Assembly (NCBI GenBank): GCA_027366525.1
Contig: DAHXKG010000009.1
Span: forward strand, 1-64,000
Reading direction: 5' to 3'
DNA length: 64,000 nt
From: a candidate division FCPU426 bacterium
GTDB taxonomy: Bacteria; Oederibacteriota; Muellerivitia; Muellerivitales; DAHXKG01
The notes under the pieces were generated by a model. The model was given only the letters and a program-made list of their open reading frames with translations. It had not been told where the DNA came from and did not search any database. The translations under genes were made by a program, and so were the position numbers. Every line of letters starts with the position of its first letter. Within the stretch, counting starts at the first letter, position 1. Of this stretch, positions 3 to 3,709 are shown in pieces.

Positions 3-902
3 CAACCCAATTATCAGACCAACCAGCAACCGACTTATCAATTCGGACAGAAGGCGATACATGTTCAGCATCTGAATTTTTCACCTCGAAGGCAACCCGT
101 CGCATCACGTCCGATACAAAGAATTGTGTCGCGTCCTAAAATTTTTAACCGGTCATCCCAACTGATAACCCAAAATCCATCTCGATTTCAAAATTTGAGA
201 TTAAAATCCATAACACGAAATGTGCATAACCGCGTCAACCATTTCAGGGTAGTCCATAATGCGCTTCCCATGCAAACGATGAATACGTTGAACCAGCCCC
301 GAGCCATGAACTATTTCTCCGTTCATGCAGGACAAGTTAATTATTCAAATTATTCAAATTATTCTTGGCATCGATATGGTAATTTAAACTATTGTTATTA
401 TCAAGATCAATGGCATCACCGATGGTTTGGATGGGTTTTTAATAGAAGTCTTTACTGGACGATGTATTATAATAATGACTGGTGGTGGTACAATTCTCAA
501 TATGGGTGGTGTTATTGGAGTTCGGGGCACTGGTGGTGGCCCAATCCTCAAAATCCTAGTGTGGTGTATATTTATGAAAATGGGAATTTTTACCCATATA
601 ATAATTCGAACTCATCCGTGTCGTACACACAATCACTGCCCTCAAGTCAATCATCCCAGGTGTTTGAAAGCCCGGATGGATCTAGAATTGTACGCATATA
701 TGGATCAGCTCAAGATGCCTTTTTGTATGATGGACAAAATCCTCCAACATTCAATCCCATCTATTTAGCTGCCCATGTGGTAAATGTAACGTTTTCTAAT
801 CCACAAAATGGATCGCCACTGCAAATTATTATTGAACGGCAAGATGGATCATATGTGATGTTTAATGCGGAAGGACAACCGTATAGCTCTACAGCCCCAT
901 AG
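3..902 (+). CDS. Trp/Tyr-rich secreted protein, copy A (5' end outside window)
   Basis: The reading frame is open from base 3 with no start required, so the gene begins before the window; the GTG at 126 is an internal codon. The visible part has about 299 residues. A low-complexity Gln/Asn/Arg-rich stretch comes first. It is followed by a block of about 65 residues extremely rich in Trp and Tyr (YCYYQDQW, YWTMYYNN, YGWCYW), with two Cys inside the YCYY and WCYW motifs. The tail contains SPDGSRIVRIYGS, DAFLYD and MFNAEGQPY. The gene lying 134 bases downstream encodes a clear paralogue over the whole aromatic block and tail. That paralogue has a signal peptide, so this one is probably exported too. 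I recognise no named domain; cell-surface or matrix binding is only a guess from the composition. Confidence 0.75.
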   Translation, partial: QPNYQTNQQPTYQFGQKAIHVQHLNFSPRRQPVASRPIQRIVSRPKIFNRSSQLITQNPSRFQNLRLKSITRNVHNRVNHFRVVHNALPMQTMNTLNQPRAMNYFSVHAGQVNYSNYSNYSWHRYGNLNYCYYQDQWHHRWFGWVFNRSLYWTMYYNNDWWWYNSQYGWCYWSSGHWWWPNPQNPSVVYIYENGNFYPYNNSNSSVSYTQSLPSSQSSQVFESPDGSRIVRIYGSAQDAFLYDGQNPPTFNPIYLAAHVVNVTFSNPQNGSPLQIIIERQDGSYVMFNAEGQPYSSTAP

Positions 903-1036
903 CTTGAAGTTTTAAAGTTTAGGAATAAAATAGATCTGATGGATGCGACAAATTTTCAGCAAAAGAGAAACTTTATTGCATGAGGAAGCGTCCAAATTTT
1001 AGGAAGTATAAGAGCGCAATCGGGAGTCATGCGAAT

Positions 1037-2116
1037 ATGCAAAAAAAAACAGGTCAACACTGGTACTGGATCGGAGCAAGTCTTGCTTTGTGCTTAATTA
1101 TTTTGAATCCAGCACGAAGCTGGGCGGATCGATTTGGCTGGGGTGGTATTGATCGAGGCGACAGCTGGCAAAATAATACCGGAGGCGGCAACTGGTGGGG
1201 CGGAGACCATGGATCAGTTCGAGGTGATCAGTATCATGGACAACCCTCGTATCAAGCGCATAGTGTCTACAATGATCAAGCAAGACCTTCCGGGGCGTGG
1301 AATCATCGCGGGTCATATTTTAATCGTTCCGTGAACGTCAATCGAAATATTCATTCGTTTAATTTCCAGGGATCCAGAAGTCCTTCACCAAAAGTTTTTT
1401 ATAATCGACAGGTTTTTAATACATTGAATAGGCCAACGATGCGTTCCTTTGCAAGATCCGTTCCTCAATATGGACCTCATGGGGCAATGCTTCATGCGCA
1501 AATTGCCTCAACCGCTCCAACAGTAAGAACCATGGGAATTTTGGCAGGTCCTCAAGCGGAAAACCACTTTATGGTTCACAGTGGACCTTATGCAAACTAT
1601 TCGTGGCATGATTATGACGGATTTTCATATTGTTATTACAGAGATCAGTGGGACAATGATTGGTATGGTTGGTACGGGAATAATCAGTTCTATTGGACAT
1701 TATACTATGACAATTATTGGTGGTGGAATGATCCCGGATATGGATGGTGTTATTGGAACGATAACAATTGGTGGTGGGATAATCCGCAAAACCCCAATGT
1801 TGTATATGTTTATGCCAATGGTAACTTTAGGCCTTACCATTCGGCCGCCAACAGAGCTTATTCATCCAATCGAGTTTTTAAGAGTCCAGATGGCTCCCGC
1901 GTGGTTAAAATTTATGGATCGACGCGAGATGCTTTCTTATATGATGCGCAAAATGTGCACGCCTTTCATCCGATTTATTTAACGTCCCATGTCAAAAAGG
2001 TTGAATTTTCCCGACCCAAACCGGGACATCCGTTGCAAATTATTGTTGAAAAACAGAATGGCACATTTGAAATGTTTAATGCTGAAGGAGAAGCGTACAC
2101 CAATTCAGCATTCTAA
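1037..2116 (+). CDS. Trp/Tyr-rich secreted protein, copy B
   Basis: Unknown function. I chose the ATG at 1037 because it puts a normal Sec signal peptide at the N-terminus (hydrophobic WIGASLALCLIIL, cleavage near SWA/DRF) and has GGGAG about 10 bases upstream. An earlier in-frame ATG at 980 would add 19 polar residues. A Gly/Trp/Asp/His-rich region follows the signal, then a linker, then the aromatic block (YCYYRDQW, WYGWYGNN, YWTLYYDN, YGWCYW, WWWDNPQNP), then the tail with SPDGSRVVKIYGS, DAFLYD and MFNAEGEAY. The block and tail match copy A just upstream at most positions, including both cysteines, so this is a tandem duplication that has diverged mainly in its N-terminal half. A secreted protease gene follows 126 bases downstream on the same strand. 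Confidence 0.8.
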   Translation: MQKKTGQHWYWIGASLALCLIILNPARSWADRFGWGGIDRGDSWQNNTGGGNWWGGDHGSVRGDQYHGQPSYQAHSVYNDQARPSGAWNHRGSYFNRSVNVNRNIHSFNFQGSRSPSPKVFYNRQVFNTLNRPTMRSFARSVPQYGPHGAMLHAQIASTAPTVRTMGILAGPQAENHFMVHSGPYANYSWHDYDGFSYCYYRDQWDNDWYGWYGNNQFYWTLYYDNYWWWNDPGYGWCYWNDNNWWWDNPQNPNVVYVYANGNFRPYHSAANRAYSSNRVFKSPDGSRVVKIYGSTRDAFLYDAQNVHAFHPIYLTSHVKKVEFSRPKPGHPLQIIVEKQNGTFEMFNAEGEAYTNSAF

Positions 2117-2242: not shown

Positions 2243-3709
2243 ATGAAATATTGTAAAAGAATTTTGTGTGTGGGAATTTATTTTTTGATCCTGAGCCAGG
2301 CCTCAGCCAATGGATTGAAGCATGCCGTTGTTAAAATTTTTTCATTTGCACGAAATCCGTCATACCTTCAACCCTGGGTTATTGGATCACCTTATGAAGT
2401 CAGTGGATCTGGCTTGGTTTTGAAAAATGGGGAAATTTTAACAAATGCCCATGTAGTGGCGAATGCAGTTTTTATTCAAGTCGTACGTTCAGGGGATCCA
2501 CGAAAATATACCGCTCATTTAAAATATATTGAAAATGATATGGATTTAGCCATTTTAACTGTTAAAAATCCTGATTTTTTCAAGGGAACCACGCATGTTC
2601 AATTTGGGGGTGTTCCTAAGCAAGGCGATAAAATCAAAGCCTATGGATTTCCAATTGGCGGAAATCAGCTATCAATTACCCAAGGGATTGTCTCGCGAAT
2701 TGAAATTTTACCCTATGTTCATGCCCAAACTAATTTATTGGCTATACAGACGGATGCCGCTATTAACCCCGGCAACAGTGGTGGACCCGTCTTTGAACAC
2801 CATAAGTGTATTGGCGTCTCTTTTCAGTCCTTGGTTGCAGGCGGGACTCAAGGCATTGGATATATTATTCCGGTGCCAGTGATTAAACATTTTTTAAAGA
2901 ACATTTCAAACAAACGATTTGGGGTACCCGTTTTAGGAGTTTTTTGGGAAAAAATGGAAAGCCAGGATATACGAACGTATTATAAAATTCCTAAACGCCG
3001 CACAGGAATATTGGTTACACGGGTTATTTATGGATCCTCTGCATGGCATATATTAAAACCGGGCGATGTGATTTTATCCATTGATCATGTAAAGATTGCC
3101 AATAATGGAACGATTCCATTTCAATCGGGGGAACGATTGAATTTTTCATATTTGATTACACAACATCAGATTGATGATATTTTGCATTTATCGATTTTAA
3201 GGCATGGAAAAATTAACAACGTAAATATTCGATTATTGTCAGGTAATCCTTTAATTCCACATCCGCAATATGATGTTTTGCCTACGTATTATATTTATGG
3301 CGGTCTCGTTTTCACGCCCTTGACATTTGACTTTATGGATTCATGGCAGAATTGGAAAAATGTTCCGTCGGTATTTCGATATTTATATGAAACGCAACTG
3401 CCTTCGCGTCAACAAAAACATATTGTGGTTCTCATTCAAGTGCTACCGAACAAAGTGAATGTGGGCTATCATGATGTTCAGCAGGCGATTGTAAAAACAG
3501 TGAATGGCTATCCGATTCGTGGAATGAAATCGTTAGTCCAAGCTTTTCAAAAGCCTGAAGGCGCATTCCAGGTGATTCAATTTTCAAGTAGTGATGGCGA
3601 TATGCGAATTGTATTAAATGCGCGAGTCTGTCAAAAAGAAAATGCCATGATCTTGAAGGAATTTGGAATTTCAGCTAACAGTTCAGCAAATTTGAAAAAA
3701 ATTGAATGA
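2243..3709 (+). CDS. Exported Deg/HtrA-family serine protease, Deg9/Deg10-like
   Basis: 488 residues from the ATG at 2243, preceded by GGAAGGAA; an upstream ATG at 2180 would bury the signal peptide. The signal sequence ends near SQASA. The trypsin-like domain shows the full triad: His70 in TNAHVV, Asp101 in MDLAIL, Ser179 in NPGNSGGPV. A PDZ domain follows (KPGDVILSIDHVKI). The C-terminal third (GGLVFTPL, NVGYHDV, VKTVNGYPI) matches the second, PDZ-like domain of the Deg9/Deg10 subgroup rather than the DegP PDZ2. Expected to cleave or hold misfolded proteins in the periplasm. It sits directly after the two Trp/Tyr-rich secreted proteins on the same strand, so those could be clients; that link is inference. 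Confidence 0.88.
   Translation: MKYCKRILCVGIYFLILSQASANGLKHAVVKIFSFARNPSYLQPWVIGSPYEVSGSGLVLKNGEILTNAHVVANAVFIQVVRSGDPRKYTAHLKYIENDMDLAILTVKNPDFFKGTTHVQFGGVPKQGDKIKAYGFPIGGNQLSITQGIVSRIEILPYVHAQTNLLAIQTDAAINPGNSGGPVFEHHKCIGVSFQSLVAGGTQGIGYIIPVPVIKHFLKNISNKRFGVPVLGVFWEKMESQDIRTYYKIPKRRTGILVTRVIYGSSAWHILKPGDVILSIDHVKIANNGTIPFQSGERLNFSYLITQHQIDDILHLSILRHGKINNVNIRLLSGNPLIPHPQYDVLPTYYIYGGLVFTPLTFDFMDSWQNWKNVPSVFRYLYETQLPSRQQKHIVVLIQVLPNKVNVGYHDVQQAIVKTVNGYPIRGMKSLVQAFQKPEGAFQVIQFSSSDGDMRIVLNARVCQKENAMILKEFGISANSSANLKKIE

Follow-up and report, generated by a model that had tools for sequence, protein, structure and literature searches.

The described systems that come closest to the proteins considered here are of four kinds. 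Choline-binding or cell-wall-binding repeats (PF01473; LytA type) are beta-hairpins of about 20 residues that bind their ligand through aromatic residues, and they occur in exported, modular proteins with varied partner domains (PMC4471590). Beta-propeller lectins, such as PHL, FleA/AFL and RSL, are strand meanders with many Trp residues. Among the prokaryotic caspase homologs (metacaspases, PF00656), extracellular members with wall-binding partners have been discussed, and a 2012 survey found no caspase homolog in its Elusimicrobia genomes (PMC3501461). The fourth kind comprises the HtrA/Deg serine proteases, which enter here as neighbors of the genes under study.

In this study, we describe an aromatic-rich (AR) domain found in two candidate phyla, FCPU426 and Elusimicrobiota, both of which are believed to be Gram-negative. 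A light literature search, which does not prove absence, returned no earlier description of the family.

The locus and its two aromatic-rich genes

The stretch of DNA analyzed, hereafter the window, covers the first 64 kb of a contig of 95,743 bp (C33) from an FCPU426 genome of 2.02 Mb that is 97.5% complete. Its first genes contain the following features.

3..902, + strand: paralog 1, 299 aa visible, 5' end lost at the contig start
360..599, + strand: AR domain (aromatic block) of paralog 1, residues 120-199
660..884, + strand: C-terminal beta domain (CTD) of paralog 1
1037..2116, + strand: paralog 2, 359 aa when read from the start favored here; the ORF opens at 980
1037..1126, + strand: signal-peptide-like N-terminus of paralog 2 (heuristic; positive start, hydrophobic stretch, SWA/DR)
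1127..1597, + strand: linker region of paralog 2, Gly/Asn/Ser/Arg-rich and weakly conserved
1598..1837, + strand: AR domain of paralog 2, predicted as a nine-strand beta-meander; residues 207-286 counting from 980, where the ORF opens
1874..2098, + strand: CTD of paralog 2, model pLDDT mostly 82-96
2243..3709, + strand: HtrA/Deg serine protease with a signal peptide, intact motifs for His (TNAHVV), Asp (MDLAIL) and Ser (GNSGGP), and PDZ and PDZ_3 domains

An earlier note on this DNA had proposed that two neighboring paralogs share an aromatic block, and indeed both ORFs exist and are homologous (phmmer E about 1e-78). Common to both proteins are an aromatic block of about 80 residues and a CTD of about 75 residues, and the pair also has YCYY, WCYW and the SPDGSR, DAFLYD and MFNAEG elements of the tail. 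Over 255 aligned codons, 125 residues are identical, and 57 of these are encoded by different codons, which points to an old duplication under purifying selection. The two are also each other's nearest relatives in the tree (99/99; the row labeled E_L002 is the window itself) on a long branch, so the duplication is old and took place inside the window's own lineage.

The second gene probably starts at ATG 1037 rather than at the opening of the ORF at 980, with GGGAG lying 10 nt upstream of that ATG. From there the protein opens with the signal-like MQKKTGQHWYWIGASLALCLIILNPARSWA, which ends in SWA/DR. The proposal that both proteins are exported thus holds for gene 2, and the signal of gene 1 is not visible because the start of the contig truncates it. 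By one rule applied to both sets, signal-like N-termini were found in 25 of 31 family proteins versus 37 of 152 neighboring ORFs, and the window pair appear, from their sequences, to be members of a lineage-restricted family of exported proteins. In front of the HtrA start at 2243 lies GGAAGGAA; a promoter and terminator scan was uninformative.

A conserved aromatic domain in FCPU426 and Elusimicrobiota

In the two window AR blocks (67 residues scored per protein), Trp, Tyr and Phe make up 39% and 42% of the residues, and 54% and 72% once Asn and Asp are included, as expected from the claim that about half of the block consists of these residues. In ordinary proteins, Trp accounts for about 1%. 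The AR alignment holds 80 distinct domains over 83 columns, with an overall composition of 38% Trp, Tyr and Phe and 0.5% lysine. W24, G26, W35, W44 and W61 are invariant across the 80 domains, W53 is kept in 79 of them, and W5 in each of the 77 that extend over its position. A low-complexity artefact is ruled out by these homologous domains and their position-specific invariants: AR is a genuine conserved family.

By profile search, 13 of 45 FCPU426 genomes carry the family, and each of the nine genomes from the window's order is among them; searching relatives at the protein level led to the same result for the order and also turned up members in a few FCPU426 families outside it. When GTDB genomes were scanned, the positives were in FCPU426 and Elusimicrobia, and an AR-only profile found the family in 39 of 341 Elusimicrobiota genomes. 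Such homologues in related genomes were the earlier note's own test against an artefact. In other phyla (about 340 sampled genomes, the search covering 384 of which about 45 were FCPU426's own), there was no convincing match, only a single 39-column match at E=8e-4. Each positive genome has one to about eight matches. The window's own genome, in which the earlier note had suggested looking for further copies, has two only, which rules out an expansion there. A phage or plasmid origin was rejected as well: searches of viral contigs and plasmids found no relatives, and PHROGs gave nothing noteworthy.

The statement that no named domain covers the block has stood. Searches of Pfam-A and NCBIfam with AR and CTD gave nothing over the curated cut-offs (best stray E about 0.01), and PHROGs and PDB sequences gave no match for the family. 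Several stray matches were discarded: SH3_5 (PF08460) was below its cut-off in L052 (E=0.0078) and absent from L067, which is 61% identical to L052; PDB sequence matches to FAM155A, QCR6 and others fell in low-complexity linkers; and a match to KLRG1 (E=1.3) is chance.

Conserved cysteines had also been noted. Both window genes and the majority of FCPU426 relatives have them, but they are no family-wide feature: both Cys occur in only 29 of 80 domains, and most Elusimicrobiota copies are Cys-free. Cys14 and Cys54 occur together in 24 of 35 FCPU426 domains versus 5 of 45 counted as Elusimicrobiota, a tally in which one or two window-derived rows fall on the Elusimicrobiota side, which only strengthens the contrast. 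The pair is thus an optional trait that perhaps forms a disulfide. A redox or metal-binding domain stabilized by metal or disulfide, through the YC..WC cysteines and the histidine of YCHY, would draw on the frequent FCPU426 pair and on His15, which is found in 74 of 80 domains. Against it, the pair is not conserved across the family, and the window proteins themselves have YCYY where others have YCHY. We regard it as highly improbable, and a metal- or Cys-based function is not borne out.

Another set of conserved motifs, VVINM.RPSSG..NRNFPSQ, HHHPYTPGYVRKKLQKIGV, precedes AR in one FCPU426 subgroup (L054, L035, L036, L060-L063), together with extra Cys (LYCY..YIPC).

Periodicity and predicted fold

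When the AR profile is compared with itself, the offset band of 18-23 scores 43.9, above the shuffled 95% limit of 36.2, and a hairpin period of about 18-20 residues can be seen, for example, in WYFGPQFFWTRYYGGRWWWYDPG versus WYDPGYDRWCFWNDGFWWWQDPY. AlphaFold2 models were built for the window protein and for L070 using 31 related sequences; their alignments overlap, and both models have the same strand order of nine short strands in AR followed by seven in the CTD. The mean pLDDT is 70 and 69 and the pTM about 0.5, with the AR part at about 50-80; in the first model, the block means of the CTD are 82-96, except one at 72. AR is thereby predicted with moderate confidence as a nine-strand beta-meander, which may be read as about four beta-hairpins of 18-20 residues, and the CTD is confidently predicted to be a beta domain.

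AR therefore resembles the choline-binding repeats in having tandem aromatic hairpins of about 20 residues, with a period above shuffles and in both models, and also in its exported, modular nature and varied partner domains (PMC4471590). The likeness is one of design only, as the AR motif is different, has no Pfam match and is not homologous by the tests applied; with 24 AR domains, a cut-off as loose as E<=10 brought up no PF01473 match, in a search whose HMMER filters drop very weak ones. Members of the choline-binding class recognize the choline of teichoic acids.

Foldseek returned no match at E<=0.001 with either model, and a viral fold library gave no significant match. The best matches of both models in the Foldseek lists are beta-propellers that include the lectins PHL, FleA/AFL and RSL, at E>0.001, TM about 0.25 and rmsd 14-15 A over whole chains. 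AR and CTD (9+7 strands) could accordingly be imagined as the blades of a propeller-like lectin, alone or as an oligomer, with sugar sites between the blades. The strand meander and many Trp would suit such a lectin, as would a weak 43-44-residue offset in the self-comparison and the SPDG-type motifs of the CTD, which we take to be reminiscent of propeller blades. But that offset is no better than shuffled controls, for which reason the four-blade propeller that it would imply was rejected, and no closed propeller is predicted, nor is there significant structural or sequence similarity to these lectins. As AR also exists without a CTD, or with a caspase-like domain instead, a propeller-like lectin seems distinctly improbable.

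Partner domains, neighboring genes and a proposed role

Four architectures are found. The window proteins and most members consist of signal, linker, AR and CTD; a short FCPU426 group has signal and AR without CTD; some Elusimicrobiota proteins have AR with two CTD copies and Pro-rich linkers; and in six Elusimicrobiota genomes (G297, G363, G351, G349, G359 and G365), AR is followed by a caspase-like domain that replaces the CTD. PF00656 is over its cut-off in all six of these fusions (L146, L147, L148, L154, L159 and L158), and the GHG and D[ST]CFSG motifs of the His-Cys dyad are intact in the five long ones aligned, L158 being left out of this count since its ORF ends before the Cys motif. 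The fusions thus carry a bona fide C14 domain, as in prokaryotic caspase homologs, but differ from described metacaspases in their undescribed AR partner; the window proteins have no caspase domain. The fusions fall into a single clade (86/75), the product of one event, and judged by sequence they are probably exported. No shared neighbors were found around them beyond one pair of genomes. PADLOC gave nothing for the AR proteins, its protease and caspase profiles matching only the protease domains, and a defence system was rejected. AR is a swappable module, new here, that occurs alone, with one or two CTDs or with a caspase-like protease; the caspase fusion, alongside HtrA, is the clearest clue that AR is separable.

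Several individual genes deserve mention. In L059 (3322-4656, G037:C127), an AR-CTD gene has one in-frame TAG between the domains and may be a pseudogene, a sequencing error or a case of recoding. L062 (4864-6270) has an extreme poly-Gln linker before AR, and L140 and L184 have PRQEPP/PxP tandem-repeat linkers ahead of it, with an extensin match below cut-off in L140.

The HtrA gene downstream of the window pair encodes a complete, typical Deg-type protease with a trypsin-like triad and PDZ domains; it is not part of the AR family. The earlier note had asked whether a Deg-like protease always follows, and the answer is no: HtrA adjoins an AR gene in four of the nine genomes of the order (G000, G003, G005 and G008), is elsewhere or absent in the other five, and no linkage was found beyond the order. 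In three of the eight sister-family genomes (L058, L034 and L041), HtrA and an AR gene are neighbors, and these linked proteases form one clade (100/99), which also takes in the second contig-end piece of the G005 gene. The window HtrA is nearest to that clade without resolved placement. Linkage is therefore a repeated but not a universal feature, and further instances may be concealed by contig ends. HtrA genes also lie at other positions in other genomes, often as tandem pairs (L165-L169).

Such neighbors raise the possibility that AR proteins are substrates, sensors or regulators of envelope proteolysis, with AR-CTD working with HtrA and AR controlling the fused caspase. The four adjacent HtrA genes, the single sister-family clade, kept although the neighborhood differs, and the caspase fusions in six genomes would be consistent with this, but the partial linkage and the one-event origin of the fusion speak against it, and we consider it quite unlikely.

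Other surroundings were also compared. Some long sister-family members lie between acetyl-CoA-synthetase-like and dienelactone hydrolase/mutY-like housekeeping genes; around the Elusimicrobiota genes, read by eye, no conserved neighbors were found, and in two Elusimicrobia (L098 and L096) the AR gene is, by eye only, near a glutaredoxin-like/thioredoxin-type gene. Among the neighborhoods compared, there was no conserved neighbor pointing to a particular polymer.

The most economical reading gives AR a binding role. We propose, with a probability of about 0.45, that AR is an exported module that binds a polymer through aromatic stacking. This proposal draws on the conserved Trp positions, the hairpin period, the agreement of the two models, the signal-like N-termini and the exchange of partner domains, and, as an analogy of mechanism, on the choline-binding repeats. 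In a protein laid out as signal peptide, disordered linker, AR of about 80 residues and then usually a CTD of about 75 residues, AR would be a rigid beta-sheet carrying rows of Trp and Tyr, which would stack on sugar rings, or on different groups that are flat or cationic, in a polymer of the envelope or the cell exterior; candidates are peptidoglycan, the cell's own surface glycan and plant or microbial polysaccharide. AR would thereby hold its partner at the polymer surface, mostly the CTD and, in one Elusimicrobiota clade, the caspase-like protease. The contrast of a conserved aromatic core with a variable N-terminal half, as the earlier note had described, was supported, and it would fit one anchor serving several partners. 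Against it, the models are only of moderate confidence, the neighborhoods compared single out no polymer, and many of the Trp might lie packed in the protein interior instead of lining a binding surface.

The composition might instead be that of a structural, self-assembling matrix protein, in which AR hairpins stack between molecules into an envelope layer, sheath or biofilm fiber and the chain is held in an extended state by the linker. This would fit the extreme aromatic content, the near absence of lysine, the paralogs in tandem and N-terminal halves rich in Gly/Asn/Gln or in Pro. Yet in the short group and the caspase fusion, each enzyme-like protein has a single AR and no long array, and tandem expansion of AR repeats was found in none of the family members, which makes a matrix role unlikely.

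Returning to polymer binding by AR, a more far-reaching version is put forward only tentatively and is doubtful: AR might be a ligand-binding scaffold of a new, non-enzymatic type, without kinship to the carbohydrate- or wall-binding modules known so far, with which the two candidate phyla direct proteins, an exported caspase-like protease among them, to a polymer of the envelope or outside the cell. AR gives a name to a conserved domain, predicted to be folded, whose carriers are listed in databases only as hypothetical proteins rich in aromatic residues; most members of the two phyla are uncultured. The caspase fusion would offer a handle on the target of an exported bacterial caspase. FCPU426/Goldbacteria and Elusimicrobia have been co-sorted with cellulose particles, which is suggestive only (PMC7031533); if AR binds polysaccharide, it would be an added binding module for these lineages.
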